A stretch of DNA of 47,006 nt from Nocardia ninae NBRC 108245 (GTDB lineage Bacteria; Actinomycetota; Actinomycetes; Mycobacteriales; Mycobacteriaceae). The position numbers were made by a program, and so were the translations under genes. Positions 36,450-41,919 of this stretch are shown piece by piece (the first letter of the stretch is position 1; each line of letters opens with the position of its first letter). Below the pieces are notes generated by a model. The model was given only the letters and a program-made list of their open reading frames with translations, did no database searches and had not been told where the DNA came from. The stretch spans positions 1-47,006 of the forward strand of contig NZ_BJXA01000072.1 of assembly GCF_007990755.1 (NCBI RefSeq), read 5' to 3'.

Positions 36450-37555
36450 TGACCTGGACGACGCAGAACCTGCGCAGAGTGGCCAAGACGCTCGTCGTCG
36501 GTGCCGCCGCGCTGACCGTCGGCAGCTGCTCGCTGGTGCCGAGTTCGGTGAACGACGCACTCGGCCGGACCATTCGGGTCACCGCCGACTTCGAGAACAT
36601 CGCGGGCATCTACGAGGGCAACCCGATCACCGTGCTCGGGCTCGACGTCGGCAAGGTCGACAAGATCGTGCCGAAGGGCACGCTGGTCGAGGTGCACATG
36701 TCGATCAACAACGACGTGAAGATTCCGAAAGACGCGATGGCCGCGATCATTTCGCCGTCCATCGTCACCGACCGGCACGTCGAGCTCACCCCGGTCTACA
36801 CCAAGGGCGACACCCTCACCGACGGCGCGCATCTGCCGCTGGCCAAGACCAAGACGCCGGTCGAACTCGACACGATGATCAAGACCATCGATCAGTTCGC
36901 CGCCGCGCTCAAGCCGGAGCCGGGCACCGAGGGCATCGGCCCGCTCTCCGGCCGGGTGTTGTACCCGATGGTGAACGGCAACGGCGAGAAGATGCGGGAC
37001 ACGCTCAACGCGTTGTCCGGTGCGCTGAAAGTCGGTGTGGACAACAAGGATGCGGTGTCCAACATCATCATCAAGCTGAACGAGCTCACCACGATGCTGG
37101 CCGACAACGACCAGTCGGTGCGCGACTTCAGCAACCGGATGACCCAGATGACCGGGCTGCTCGCCGAGCAGGCCCCCGGCCTGCAGGCGACGCTCGATCA
37201 GATCAACGACTTCCTGGCCAACACCAGCGGCACGCTCGGCCAGTACCAGGATCAGCTGGCGAGCGCCCTGGCCGGATTGACCAACGTCACCGCCCAGTTG
37301 CGCGAGAACGCTTACGGCATCACCGAAGTCGTCGACGTGGCGCCGATGGTCTTCCAGAACATCGACCGGATCGTGAACCGGGAAGGGCGCTACGTTCGGC
37401 TGCACGCGATCATCGGCACGGCACTGTCCGGTGAGATGGTGAGCGTGTTCTGCGAGCGGATCCAGATGAAGGCGGACGGTTGCCGCACCGGAAACATGCA
37501 GGACTTCGGGCCCGACTACGGCCTGACCGCAGCGCTGCTCGGACTGACGAAATGA
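36446..37555 (+). CDS. MceD-family protein with a possible lipobox
   Basis: 369 residues from GTG 36446 (an ATG one codon later also fits). The GTG overlaps the mceC stop. The N-terminus is a short basic-hydrophobic signal (RRVAKTLVVGAAALTVGSCS) that ends in a possible lipobox (T-V-G-S-C), C28 from the GTG. That is unusual: in tuberculosis it is MceE that is the lipoprotein. The MCE domain (ADFENIAGIYEGNPITVLGLDVGKV shortened: IAGIYEGNPITVLGLDVG) and the helical region follow. If lipidated, this complex has two lipid-anchored subunits, D and E. Confidence 0.85.
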   Translation: MMTWTTQNLRRVAKTLVVGAAALTVGSCSLVPSSVNDALGRTIRVTADFENIAGIYEGNPITVLGLDVGKVDKIVPKGTLVEVHMSINNDVKIPKDAMAAIISPSIVTDRHVELTPVYTKGDTLTDGAHLPLAKTKTPVELDTMIKTIDQFAAALKPEPGTEGIGPLSGRVLYPMVNGNGEKMRDTLNALSGALKVGVDNKDAVSNIIIKLNELTTMLADNDQSVRDFSNRMTQMTGLLAEQAPGLQATLDQINDFLANTSGTLGQYQDQLASALAGLTNVTAQLRENAYGITEVVDVAPMVFQNIDRIVNREGRYVRLHAIIGTALSGEMVSVFCERIQMKADGCRTGNMQDFGPDYGLTAALLGLTK

Positions 37556-38655
37556 CGTACCGAATGACGATCAAGGCACGCCGCGCACTGATCGCGGTCG
37601 CGGCGGTGGCTGGTGTGGGCATCACCTCCGGGTGTGGTCTCACGGTGGAGAAGCTGCCGCTGCCCAAGCCCGGCGTATCCGGCGAAACCTACACCGTGCA
37701 CGCCGTTTTCGAGAACGCGCTGAACCTGCCGGACCAGGCGAAGGTGAAGATCGGCGGCTCGGATGTCGGCGTGGTCTCCAACATCAAGACCAAGAACTTC
37801 CAGGCCGTCGTCGACCTGACGATCAGCAAAGACATCGAGCTGCCCAAGAACAGCACCGCCGAACTGCGCCAGGCCACGCCACTGGGTGACGTGTTCATCG
37901 CGGTGTCCAAGCCGAAGACCGAGCCGGGCACCGAAATGCTGCGCAGCGGAGACACGCTCGGCCTCGACAAGACCTCGGCGGGTGCCACCGTCGAGCAGCT
38001 GCTGATCTCGATCTCCATGCTGTTCAACGGTGGTGGCGTCGCCAGCCTCAGCAAGCTCACCTCGGAGCTGGACTCCATCGTGGGTGGACGCGGCGGCCAA
38101 CTCTCGCACCTGATCACCGAAATGACCGGCGTGGTCGGCAGTTTGAACGCCAACTCGGCGAAGGTCGACAGCGTGCTGAACGAATTCAGCGCGCTGGCCA
38201 ACACCATCGAGTCCCGGCGCGCCGAGCTCGGCCAGGTGGCCGACACGCTGCCCCAGATGATCGGCGCCATCGCCGAGAACAACAGGGCCATCGGCGATCT
38301 GCTGACCAAGGTGTCGACCACCAGTGCGGCGCTCGGCGATTACGCGGACACCTCCGGCCAGCAGCTGGGTAGCCTGCTCGACAACACCCGCGCGCTGATG
38401 GACGCGCTGGCCGCGACCGGCGACAACCTCGGCATCCTGCTCGATCGGGCGCGCGAGATCCGGCCGAAGGTCGACGCGACCTTCAAGGGCAAGAGCTTCG
38501 CCGTCTACGCCACGCTGACCAACCTCGACCTCAGCGCGGTGACCGACCCGCAGCACGGCGGCCTGCATGATCTGCGCGACGTGCAGGATCTGGCGGGCAG
38601 CCTGATCCAGGTGCTGCAGATAGTGCAGAACCGGGTGGAGGGTGGTCACCGATGA
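37552..38655 (+). CDS. MceE-family lipoprotein
   Basis: 367 residues from ATG 37552, which overlaps the mceD stop. The signal (ALIAVAAVAGVGITSGCGL) ends in a good lipobox with C28, as in the LprK group of MceE proteins. The MCE domain (ENALNLPDQAKVKIGGSDVG) and the long helical region (KVDSVLNEFSALANTIESRR) follow. It probably lines the lipid tunnel like the other subunits while anchored by its lipid. The next gene overlaps its stop by four bases. Confidence 0.88.
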   Translation: MTYRMTIKARRALIAVAAVAGVGITSGCGLTVEKLPLPKPGVSGETYTVHAVFENALNLPDQAKVKIGGSDVGVVSNIKTKNFQAVVDLTISKDIELPKNSTAELRQATPLGDVFIAVSKPKTEPGTEMLRSGDTLGLDKTSAGATVEQLLISISMLFNGGGVASLSKLTSELDSIVGGRGGQLSHLITEMTGVVGSLNANSAKVDSVLNEFSALANTIESRRAELGQVADTLPQMIGAIAENNRAIGDLLTKVSTTSAALGDYADTSGQQLGSLLDNTRALMDALAATGDNLGILLDRAREIRPKVDATFKGKSFAVYATLTNLDLSAVTDPQHGGLHDLRDVQDLAGSLIQVLQIVQNRVEGGHR

Positions 38656-39824
38656 TCGCGAAACTGATGCAGCACAAGCTGGTGTTGTCGACCATCGGCC
38701 TGGTGCTGGTATTCGTGATCGGCGCCAGCTATCTGATGATCAGCATCATGCGGGTGAACCCGTTGAAGTCCAGTTACACCGTCACGGTGAATCTGGACCG
38801 TTCGGGTGGTCTGCAACCGGGCAACGATGTGACCCTGCGCGGCTATCGGGTCGGCAAGGTCAACTCGATCAAGCTGACCGACCGCGGCCAGGCCATCGCC
38901 GCGGTGGCGGAGATCGAGAGCAAGTACAAGATTCCGGTGGACACCGCGATCTCGGTGCAGGCGCTCTCCGGCGCGGGCGAGCAGTACATCGACTTCCGCC
39001 CGGCCAGCGAGCAGGCGCCGTACCTCGGCGACGGCGCGGTGATCAAATACGATGCGGCCAAGATCAAGACGCCGACCCCGGTCTGGTCGGTCCTCGACAA
39101 CGCCAGCGCACTGATCGCGCAGGTCGATCCGGACAAGTTCGGCGTCATCCTGCACGAGCTCGACATCGCGCTCAGCGGCGGCCCGGATCAGTTGCGCGGC
39201 ATGGTCAACGGCATCAGCCTGGCCATGGCCGGCTTCGACAATCTGCTGCCGCAGACCACGAACCTGATCGCCAACCTGCGCACCATCGCGAACACCACCT
39301 CCAACGCTCAGCCCGACCTCGGCACGCTGACCCGCAACTCCGGCGCGCTGTTCACCCAGTTCAACAACGCCAACGCCGAACTGCAGGGCATTCTCGAGCG
39401 CGCACCGGGGCAGTTGGCCAGCCTCGGCGCGGTGCTGGACAAGACCAGTGATCCGATCACCAGCCTGGCCACCAATTTCGCGGCGATGACCAAGGCCGCG
39501 CAGTTGCGCCTGCCCGCCCTGCGCGCGCTGTTCCCCTCGCTCGCGCTGGGTGCGGACGCGCTGGGTGTGCCTGCCCACGACGGCGAGTTCCACGCGATCC
39601 TCGACATCTGGCCGCGGCCGTTCTGCACCTACAACACGCCGCAGCTGCGCAACGAGGTCATCCAGGACGGCTCGATTCCCAAGTGGAACTACTGTGAGAA
39701 TCCGCCGCCCGGCCAGGAGATCCGTGGTGCCGCCAACGCACCGCGCCCGAATGTGCCGAACAACGGCGCGCACATGCCGCCGGGTGTGGATCCGAACGAA
39801 CGGACCCTGCCCCCGATCAAGTGA
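38652..39824 (+). CDS. MceF-family lipid-transport protein
   Basis: 390 residues. N-terminal helix VLSTIGLVLVFVIGASYLMI, then the MCE domain (LDRSGGLQPGNDVTLRGYRV, with ALSGAGEQYIDF at its end), helical repeats and a proline-rich tail (PPPGQEIRGAANAPRPNVPN). It is the sixth and last MCE subunit. Its ATG overlaps the mceE stop. It is followed after 132 bp by the Mce-associated gene, whose gap is the only sizeable one in the operon. Confidence 0.88.
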   Translation: MIAKLMQHKLVLSTIGLVLVFVIGASYLMISIMRVNPLKSSYTVTVNLDRSGGLQPGNDVTLRGYRVGKVNSIKLTDRGQAIAAVAEIESKYKIPVDTAISVQALSGAGEQYIDFRPASEQAPYLGDGAVIKYDAAKIKTPTPVWSVLDNASALIAQVDPDKFGVILHELDIALSGGPDQLRGMVNGISLAMAGFDNLLPQTTNLIANLRTIANTTSNAQPDLGTLTRNSGALFTQFNNANAELQGILERAPGQLASLGAVLDKTSDPITSLATNFAAMTKAAQLRLPALRALFPSLALGADALGVPAHDGEFHAILDIWPRPFCTYNTPQLRNEVIQDGSIPKWNYCENPPPGQEIRGAANAPRPNVPNNGAHMPPGVDPNERTLPPIK

Positions 39825-39956: not shown

Positions 39957-40781
39957 ATGTCCACCGATGACGCTGACACCAACAAGGACGCCGAGGACGC
40001 GGTGACCGAGGACGCTGCGACCGAGAAGTCCGCCGCAACGGCGAAGCCTGAGCTGTCGAAGACAGAAACGGCAACGACCGAGAAGAAGGTGGCGACCGAA
40101 AAGCAGCCCGCGGCCGAAAAGAAGGCAGCGTCGGAGGCCGGTGCGACGGCGAGTGGTCCGGCCGGCGCGAAGCGGTCCGCCTCGTTGCCGCTGATCGCCG
40201 CGTTCGCGGCGGGTGTACTGGCGGTGGCCGCGATCACCGCGGTGGTGGTGTTCTTCCTGCAGGGCAAGGACCGCGGCGAGAAGCTGGACGCGATCCGCGA
40301 TTCGACGCAGGCCGCCTGCACCTTCGGCAAGGACGTCTCGGTCTACGACTACACCAAGAACCTCGACGACTACTTCACCAAGGTGAAGTCCGGGGCGAGC
40401 GGCGAATTCCTCAAGGAGTTCGACGACGCGACCAAGGCGCTCAAGGACGCGATGGTGCAGGCGCAGGTCAAGTCCTGGGTCGACGACGTGCAGTGCGGCT
40501 ACCAGTCCGGTGACAAGACCGAGGCCAAGGTGCTCGTCACGCTCACCCAGTACCGGACCAACTTCACCCAGTCGACGCCGGAGCGGCAGTTCGTCGTGGT
40601 GATCGCGCAGCTGACCAAGTCCGGGGACAAGTGGCTGGTCGAGAAGCTCGATTCGCCGATGCTGAAGGGCGCGGGCACCGGTCTGCCCGGCGCTCCGGGT
40701 GCGCCCGTGCCGGGCGAAGCCCCCGCACCTGCGCCTGCCCCCGCGCCGAGTGGGCAGCCTGCCCCGCAGCCGGGTAACTAG
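39957..40781 (+). CDS. Mce-associated membrane protein
   Basis: 274 residues from ATG 39957. The first 70 residues are a highly charged, low-complexity cytoplasmic tail (repeats of Ala, Glu, Lys and Thr). One helix (SLPLIAAFAAGVLAVAAITA, about 75-98) follows, then a small extracytoplasmic domain of about 140 residues with a cysteine pair (AACTFGKDV, DDVQCGYQS) and a proline/alanine-rich end (PAPAPAPAPSGQPAPQPGN). This is the Mas/Omam layout; such proteins stabilise Mce complexes (OmamA, for example). Mycobacterial operons often have two to four such genes; here only one is seen. The ribosome site is poor (GCAGG). A strong terminator hairpin follows at 40806-40842. Confidence 0.82.
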   Translation: MSTDDADTNKDAEDAVTEDAATEKSAATAKPELSKTETATTEKKVATEKQPAAEKKAASEAGATASGPAGAKRSASLPLIAAFAAGVLAVAAITAVVVFFLQGKDRGEKLDAIRDSTQAACTFGKDVSVYDYTKNLDDYFTKVKSGASGEFLKEFDDATKALKDAMVQAQVKSWVDDVQCGYQSGDKTEAKVLVTLTQYRTNFTQSTPERQFVVVIAQLTKSGDKWLVEKLDSPMLKGAGTGLPGAPGAPVPGEAPAPAPAPAPSGQPAPQPGN

Positions 40782-40865: not shown

Positions 40866-41438
40866 TCAGAACAGCGTCAGTGTCTGCGGCGCCGACGGCG
40901 CGGCCGCCTTCCCCGCGGCCTGCTCTCGTGGCGCTTCCGGCGCCGCCGGCGTTTCTTCCACAAGCACCGCGGGGATCTCCGCGGTGTTCGCCTCGGCGAC
41001 GGCCGCTGTCGCGGCGGCCTTCCGAGCCGCTTCTCCGGCAAGCGCGTCGGCCTGCTCGTTGAAGTAGTTGCCGACATGTCCACGGACCCAACGGAACCGG
41101 ACGGGCCCGGGCCTGCTGGCGATCGCTTTGTCGATCTGCCGGATGAGTTCCACGTTCTTCACGGCGCCGCCGCTCGAGGTGCGCCAGCCGTTGAGCCGCC
41201 AACTGGAGATCCACTCCGACGCGCACTTGATCGCGTAGAGCGAATCGCTTTCGATCAGTAGGGGTTCGGAGCCGGGATGGGCGAGAATCGCCTCCAGCAC
41301 CGCGCGTAGCTCCGCGACCTGGTTGGTGCCGGAGGCGGCACCGCCGCTCAGCGAGGAGCCCTGATGATTGACCCAAGCCCAGCCGATGGCGCCGCCGGGG
41401 TTGCGGAGGCAGGATCCGTCGGTGCTCACGATGATCAT
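40866..41438 (-). CDS. rnhA: ribonuclease HI with C-terminal tail ending in a clamp-like peptide
   Basis: 190 residues from ATG 41438. The catalytic residues of RNase HI are all in place: D7 (STDGS), E43 (VAELRAVLEA), D65 (ESDSLYAI), H121 (RGHVGNYFNEQ) and D131 (ADALAG). The enzyme degrades RNA of RNA-DNA hybrids, such as R-loops and primers. The core ends near residue 137. A tail of about 50 residues, rich in Ala, Glu and Pro, follows and ends in QTLTLF. That last peptide resembles the beta-sliding-clamp-binding motif (Q-x-hydrophobic-x-L-F, compare QAMSLF of the E. coli delta subunit). Attachment to the replication clamp is inference. Longer starts run into the neighbour's 3' end and look wrong. 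Confidence 0.88.
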   Translation of the reverse strand: MIIVSTDGSCLRNPGGAIGWAWVNHQGSSLSGGAASGTNQVAELRAVLEAILAHPGSEPLLIESDSLYAIKCASEWISSWRLNGWRTSSGGAVKNVELIRQIDKAIASRPGPVRFRWVRGHVGNYFNEQADALAGEAARKAAATAAVAEANTAEIPAVLVEETPAAPEAPREQAAGKAAAPSAPQTLTLF

Positions 41439-41448
41439 GGCTGGCACC

Positions 41449-41919
41449 CTACGCAATCCGACCGACAAGATCGGTACCGTGGAATTCTTCTATCTCCCTT
41501 CGCAATTGGGACTCGGTGCGGCGGAGCGCCGATTTGACGGCGGAATCCACCAGACCGACACAGAGTCGCCCCGCCAAGCCACGCGGGGGGCTGTACTCCG
41601 CCTCGGACGTCAGCACCGACCGCCCGTATCCGAGCGGATCGAAGCGCAGCGTCAGGGTCCCGGACAAACGCCCACGCAGCGTATACCCGATCACCACGTT
41701 GCGACGATATTCGGTGACCTCGCATGTCATCCTCGGCCGCCACAGCATCAGCCGTGCGGTGGTCGCGTACATCGCGCCGAGGCCGGAGTCGAGCTCACCG
41801 GTCGGTTCGAAGTCGGCGACCGCGAACATCCAATCCGGTACGAACAGATGGTTGTCCGTATAGGTGAAGGCGACCTCGACAGGCGCCCCGACGTCACTCG
41901 CGTACTTGATGCGGCCCAT
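41449..41919 (-). CDS. SRPBCC (START-like) family protein
   Basis: 156 residues with GGGAGG before the ATG at 41919. The pattern MGRIKYASDVGAPVEVAFTY, then NHLFVPDWMFAV and a Y/R-rich middle (TCEVTEYRRNVVIGYTLRGR) is that of the polyketide cyclase/START-like fold, ligand unknown. The C-terminal helix (SAVKSALRRTESQLRREIEEF) closes the pocket. The RNase HI gene follows 10 bp downstream on the same strand, so they are probably co-transcribed. The second SRPBCC protein of the window (17978) is not closely similar. Confidence 0.8.
   Translation of the reverse strand: MGRIKYASDVGAPVEVAFTYTDNHLFVPDWMFAVADFEPTGELDSGLGAMYATTARLMLWRPRMTCEVTEYRRNVVIGYTLRGRLSGTLTLRFDPLGYGRSVLTSEAEYSPPRGLAGRLCVGLVDSAVKSALRRTESQLRREIEEFHGTDLVGRIA

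Follow-up and report, generated by a model that had tools for sequence, protein, structure and literature searches.

A 2024 review recognises two forms of clamp-binding motif, Q-phi-x-[LM]-[FL] and Q-phi-x-[LM]-x-[FL]. Its excerpts state that the L and F at positions 4 and 5 are the most important residues, that LF alone is able to bind the clamp, and that motifs without the Gln may escape Gln-based searches (PMC11139829). The delta subunit is the only natural Gln-less ligand known to the authors of that review, whose excerpted text describes the Gln before the delta AMSLF as staying out of the Gln pocket (PMC11139829). In actinobacteria, the tail of NucS follows the consensus [EK][LY][TR]LF, and the available sections of a review and of a Streptomyces paper present its binding to the clamp as experimental (PMC8228993, PMC11109965). 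According to the review, the NucS of C. glutamicum requires its C-terminal end to bind the clamp, to be activated and to keep the mutation rate low (PMC8228993).

The route by which bacterial RNase HI reaches hybrids at the replication fork is established for E. coli, in which the enzyme is recruited by SSB (PMC11253446, in excerpt). The E. coli protein binds the SSB tail via K3, R29, R31, K33 and K60 (PMC6618814, in excerpt). RNase HI is reported to be essential for the survival of M. smegmatis (PMC4429107), so the way it is recruited is relevant to replication across the wider group. A search by title and start of abstract, lying mostly outside subscription journals, found no description of an actinobacterial RNase HI that binds the clamp. 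The term 'RNase H' is absent from the main text of the clamp reviews PMC11139829 and PMC9690074, and the available parts of PMC12926913 and PMC9719913 hold nothing on binding between RNase HI and the clamp.

The window analysed here is the whole 47,006-nucleotide stretch of contig NZ_BJXA01000072.1 from Nocardia ninae NBRC 108245. Sequence comparison suggests, with a probability of roughly 0.8, that the RNase HI encoded in it is tethered to the sliding clamp DnaN via a Gln-less C-terminal motif of the NucS type.

The RNase HI gene and its surroundings

The RNase HI gene lies on the minus strand at 40866-41438 and, read from the ATG at 41438, encodes a 190-aa protein (200 aa in the open reading frame list, which takes a TTG further upstream as the start). 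Residues 1-139, starting at that ATG (41022..41438, minus strand), make up the catalytic core, which is assigned from Pfam PF00075 and the invariant catalytic residues. The Pfam RNase_H domain covers residues 3-138 (E 1.1e-29), and NCBIfam ribonuclease H/HI models match under their curated cut-offs, with 98.5 of 160 and 102.9 of 280 bits. The catalytic residues D7, E43, D65, H121 and D131 correspond to E. coli D10, E48, D70, H124 and D134, and this D-E-D-H-D set is invariant in 185/185 aligned orthologs, taken from the 186 first fetched after one with a disrupted start had been left out. The first-pass annotation had recorded a full set of catalytic residues, and the alignment agrees. The genome has no second match to the RNase HI protein (E 0.001). 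Its nearest named relatives are Nocardia, with N. suismassiliense reaching 99% identity over the matched segment (among the best 80 of 169 matches).

The core ends at about residue 139 and is followed by a tail of 51 residues rich in Ala, Pro and Glu, close to the length of about 50 and the composition noted earlier. Most of the tail is an Ala/Pro/Glu-rich linker (residues 140-185; 40884..41021, minus strand), which varies in length and sequence among orthologs. It closes with Gln-185 (40884..40886, minus strand), a residue that is neither conserved nor in register with a clamp motif. The last five residues, 186-190, form the pentapeptide TLTLF-COOH (40869..40883, minus strand), regarded as clamp-binding-like on account of its conservation among orthologs and a shape shared with the NucS tail of the same genome. 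The stop codon TGA (40866-40868, minus strand) leaves the Phe carboxylate free on translation. Read on the minus strand, 40869-40886 is CAG ACA CTG ACG CTG TTC, or QTLTLF, with TGA next, and the C-terminus is thus exactly the one first described.

A Polyketide_cyc2 (SRPBCC-like) gene at 41449..41919 on the minus strand (Pfam PF10604, E 2.7e-11) ends 10 nt upstream of the RNase HI start. The pair is present in 80/80 named Nocardia loci (best 80 of 169) with a gap of 9-11 nt, and the two genes are likely co-transcribed. Two MlaD/Mce4_CUP1 (mce-type) proteins, recognised by Pfam, are encoded on the plus strand at 37480-39824; after them comes an open reading frame (39957-40781) whose N-terminus is rich in Lys and Glu and for which Pfam gave no match.

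Conservation of the ending and variation of the linker

Leu-Phe-COOH ends 206/216 distinct orthologs with a readable stop, drawn from 18 genera of one family: TLF in 198, HLF in 6, RLF in 1 and SLF in 1. The ending is present in 14/18 genera, that is, Nocardia and 13 others. This family-level count left out weak or partial matches (two contig fragments and matches of <=48% identity). Position -4 is L, M, F or V in 186/206 and Ala or Pro in 20/206, and position -2 is Leu in all 206 orthologs that end in Leu-Phe. An earlier expectation had been that the last six residues would be conserved in close relatives while the linker varied; Leu-Phe and the variable linker conform to it, and the Gln is not kept.

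The counts come from two samples. The first (n=186) comprised 80 named Nocardia loci and 106 orthologs from 17 other genera, among the matches listed. A stop was found in 184/186, two sequences running off the contig, and x[TS]LF-COOH in 174 (173 TLF, 1 SLF). TLF ends 77/80 of the named Nocardia loci (best 80 of 169); two of the remaining three run off the contig and one shows it in a different frame. For the 106 genes from other genera, the query lacked the tail. For the 80 named loci, the best 80 of 169, the query contained it, and this sample could therefore favour the window's own ending. As a check on this bias, 60 genes were drawn from among the low scorers of the genus search, leaving out G134 (match near a contig end) and G084. 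They gave 51 TLF, 6 HLF and 1 RLF, plus one frame-shifted gene, with the same ending as L075, and one off the contig. Judged by sequence, 33 of these genes were additional to the named 80 (25 TLF, 6 HLF, 1 RLF and one without a stop). The HLF and RLF endings among these lower-scoring genes indicate that Thr is not invariant in Nocardia, whereas Leu-Phe is; the odds given to the clamp reading were left unchanged. One group within Nocardia (L386, L390, L393, L398, L410, L417, L418) ends in YATTAQAL[HR]LF, with His or Arg replacing Thr.

Ten orthologs lack the ending. Two of these (L075, L303) show LTLF at the end of an open stretch in a different frame and are, from their sequences, probably frame shifts. 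The other eight, from four genera, have an intact core and a short tail without the motif (g20 L126; g21 L129, L143, L319 and L323; g24 L130 and L144; g31 L111). As four of the 18 genera have a tail-less RNase HI, a tether would be dispensable in some lineages, and the motif-less enzymes of g20, g21, g24 and g31 offer a natural comparison for the function of the tail.

The linker behaves quite differently from the ending. Tail length ranges over 21-140 residues, with a median of 49 (174 sequences), and the entropy per position is high. Without its last six residues, the tail consists of 26% Ala and 15% Pro (first 174), a composition from which the linker is predicted to be disordered or flexible. 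The 30 residues preceding the last four are <20% identical in 11823/15051 pairs when right-aligned without gaps (first 174). The conserved Leu and Thr are each written with 4-5 synonymous codons, and the Phe is nearly always TTC. A scrambled linker beside synonymous Leu and Thr codons indicates that the peptide itself is under selection. A signal at the level of DNA or RNA was ruled out, since the Leu and Thr codons vary synonymously. The sequences are related, as they would be if the peptide had merely been inherited or had arisen by chance, without selection, but the retention of Leu-Phe-COOH next to such a linker and such codons refutes this explanation in the alignment and leaves it a negligible probability. 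The [LF]T[LF]F-stop DNA pattern (TGG allowed) is found a single time in the window, as against 0/100 dinucleotide shuffles, which is more than chance would give.

More distant homologs rarely carry the motif, and in its strict form it is mainly a feature of this one family. Among 26 order-level loci, FLF ends 2, and looser ends are found in 5 others (TLFD twice, TLW, LGF and an internal DLF); among 24 class-level loci, ALF ends 1 and ELDLFSLL is found in 1. The tails of the order-level relatives L234, L235, L237 and L238 end in QFLF, GFLF or PTLFD, which are loosely clamp-like, and PTLFD resembles the ending of Pol III alpha in Phe-Asp.

A second Leu-Phe motif, [EQ]PxLF or MALF, stands 8-12 residues before the end in 11/174 tails from three genera (g22 L112, L117, L131, L260, L264 and L269; g14 L147, L305 and L311; g2 L125 and L148). 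These are the only internal LF dipeptides across the first 174 tails.

Motif register, other C-termini and the DnaN pocket

The first-pass annotation had read the C-terminus as Q-x-hydrophobic-x-L-F with the Gln as a member. That part of the reading fails: Gln occurs at -5, position 1 of a clamp-binding motif, in 0/206, and the unconserved Gln of the window stands one residue further from the end, at -6, where 32/174 orthologs, all Nocardia, have it. Against the motif Q-phi-x-[LM]-[FL], the position-1 Gln is missing, and the ending agrees at position 4 (Leu/Met) and position 5 (Phe/Leu). The hexameric form Q-phi-x-[LM]-x-[FL] does not fit either, since it would place Thr at position 4. The likeness to delta QAMSLF that had been pointed out holds for the layout, which QTLTLF shares, although the Gln is not the reason for it. 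Position 3 is Thr, His, Arg or Ser, in keeping with the clamp rules, which leave this position unconstrained, and the claim of a strict Thr was lowered accordingly.

NucS provides the closest comparison within the genome. Its C-terminus in Nocardia ninae is EFRLF. Leu-Phe ends NucS in 28/28 sequences, a set assembled without two weak NucS-like loci (L209, L210); all 17 from Nocardia (17/17) end in FRLF, and the endings elsewhere include EMTLF, PTLF and ARLF. The NucS consensus [EK][LY][TR]LF is matched exactly by 21/206 RNase HI proteins, all of them ELTLF. The window's TLTLF departs from it at position 1, and one Nocardia RNase HI ends in the NucS-like ALRLF. The ALTLF and AMTLF of other RNase HI orthologs are close equivalents of delta AMSLF. 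As controls, the RNase HII of this genome ends in ATGATHAR, with no such motif, and its four best SSB genes end in PPF. Two of the three DnaE-type polymerases of the genome carry QFDLF; they are located on G000:C56 and G000:C2 (L356, L357), and one may be a second copy of the replicative type. In all, six matches in this genome lie above the SSB family cut-off.

Across the 9.7-Mb genome, the pattern [LF]x[LF]F-stop has 55 matches, against 249 for the reversed pattern. A true stop with none earlier is found in 17 of the 55, and 6/17 close an open frame of at least 100 aa. NucS and RNase HI are two of these six frames, among which no other common theme was recognised by eye.

These comparisons also bear on whether TLF-COOH could be read by a different partner, one of the proteins that recognise a free C-terminus (a PDZ-type protein or a protease adaptor, for instance), which would make it a degron or a localisation tag. 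Conservation by itself shows only that some partner reads the peptide, and Thr at position 3 (198/206) is commoner than clamp rules require. On the other hand, NucS, a reported clamp binder, has a like ending, including MTLF and PTLF in relatives; RNase HI has His, Arg or Ser as well as Thr at position 3; and long frames with such an ending are few and share nothing else visible. A partner other than the clamp is accordingly considered unlikely.

The tail might also mimic the C-terminus of SSB, docking on SSB-binding proteins or on SSB-docking sites. Both tails end in Phe-COOH, and outside Nocardia the stretch preceding the motif is acidic, like that of SSB tails, with a mean of 2.34 Asp/Glu at -5 to -10. 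Nocardia, however, is poor in acidic residues there (mean 0.53), and the Pro-Phe of the SSB genes is replaced by Leu-Phe in every conserved RNase HI ending. SSB mimicry was rejected on this -2 residue, a Pro-Phe ending being found in none of the 216 orthologs (0/10 among those without Leu-Phe), and is held to be very improbable.

The residues with which the E. coli enzyme docks on SSB are mostly gone. The corresponding positions are basic in few or no orthologs: K3 in 9/185, R29 in 3/185, R31 in 0/185, K33 in 0/185 and K60 in 0/185. The E. coli-type basic pocket for the SSB tail (R29/R31/K33/K60) is not found in them. These residues have also gone in the tail-less genera shown, which indicates no one-to-one link between their loss and the presence of the tail; the SSB pocket may just belong to the E. 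coli side.

The DnaN of this genome aligns over nearly its full length with solved beta clamps (best E 1e-165). Its pocket was compared at 17 E. coli residues named in the excerpts of PMC11139829, with Asn320 left out. Nine of the 17 are kept (L155, T172, R176, L177, P242, Y323, M362, P363, R365) and eight are changed (R152, G174, H175, R246, V247, V344, V360, M364). The changes include R152 (L), H175 (F) and R246 (Q), and V247L, V360L and M364V are conservative. With a different charged rim, the contacts made by the terminal carboxylate in E. coli are not simply transferable to this clamp. It is a guess that the altered rim explains a preference for a Gln-less ligand.

The proposed tether beside known systems

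In the preferred reading, a catalytically complete RNase HI would be recruited to the beta sliding clamp (DnaN), the Leu-Phe pair of T-L-T-L-F-COOH docking in hydrophobic subsite I. A flexible linker would let the nuclease reach RNA/DNA hybrids near the clamp, with the clamp staying on the DNA. The substrates would be (i) Okazaki primers, (ii) R-loops met by the fork, and (iii) runs of ribonucleotides. We infer the binding to DnaN, the flexibility of the linker and the biological substrates. Several features were counted against a tether: Gln is never at position 1, position -4 is Ala or Pro in 20/206, 8/17 positions of the DnaN pocket differ, four of the 18 genera do without the tail, and the preference for Thr at position 3 exceeds what the clamp needs by E. 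coli rules.

A contact with the clamp could be real and yet serve another end, namely the clamp loader or polymerase exchange, by competition for the pocket, with no part in hybrid removal. Known clamp ligands share one pocket, according to the excerpts of PMC11139829, so that an abundant tail would compete for it. Catalytic residues that are invariant in 185/185 orthologs are a better fit for a tethered active nuclease, and pocket competition as the purpose of the tail is thought extremely unlikely.

Beyond the tether itself, a wider proposal from these sequences is judged plausible on balance. The RNase HI of Nocardia and at least 13 related genera would be a true clamp client, the clamp replacing the part that SSB plays in E. 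coli. The enzyme and NucS would then make up an actinobacterial class of clamp ligands whose C-terminus has the form hydrophobic-[T/R/H]-Leu-Phe, overlooked by QLxLF searches, and the upstream [EQ]PxLF-like or MALF motif of three genera would be a second, tandem clamp site. The motif would belong to a known class, on an enzyme where its carriage is new as far as the searchable literature goes. If the tether is real, the removal of primers or R-loops would be coupled directly to the clamp.

The nearest described system is NucS/EndoMS, which has the same hydrophobic-x-Leu-Phe at the extreme C-terminus, with a free carboxylate and no position-1 Gln. It is a different enzyme, in which the motif follows soon after the catalytic domain, whereas in RNase HI it is carried by a linker that is long and variable; at the third residue, Thr predominates in RNase HI and Arg in the NucS set. 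The canonical QL[S/D]LF motifs (Pol II, Pol IV and the QFDLF of DnaE) share Leu at position 4, Phe at position 5, a mostly hydrophobic position 2 and placement at an end or in a flexible part, but RNase HI carries the position-1 Gln in none of its 206 Leu-Phe endings. The AMSLF of delta is likewise a Gln-less A-[LM]-[ST]-L-F, and some Nocardia RNase HI proteins even keep a preceding, off-pocket Gln (QTLTLF and QALTLF, compared with QAMSLF). The delta motif differs in being part of a folded domain, as seen in a crystal complex, and in aiding ring opening (excerpts of PMC11139829), whereas that of RNase HI is a terminal tail.

E. coli RNase HI belongs to the same enzyme family and is also recruited to the replisome, in that case via SSB (PMC11253446, in excerpt). 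In the orthologs studied here the docking residues have mostly been lost, and the tether would sit on the enzyme's own tail. In eukaryotes, PCNA reportedly directs RNase H2, as Bubeck is said to have described in 2011, so that there too a sliding clamp directs an RNase H activity. That system pairs a type 2 enzyme with PCNA, not RNase HI with DnaN, and the likeness would be convergent. A clamp tether in this actinobacterial family, if true, would be a second solution beside SSB and a parallel to PCNA and RNase H2.
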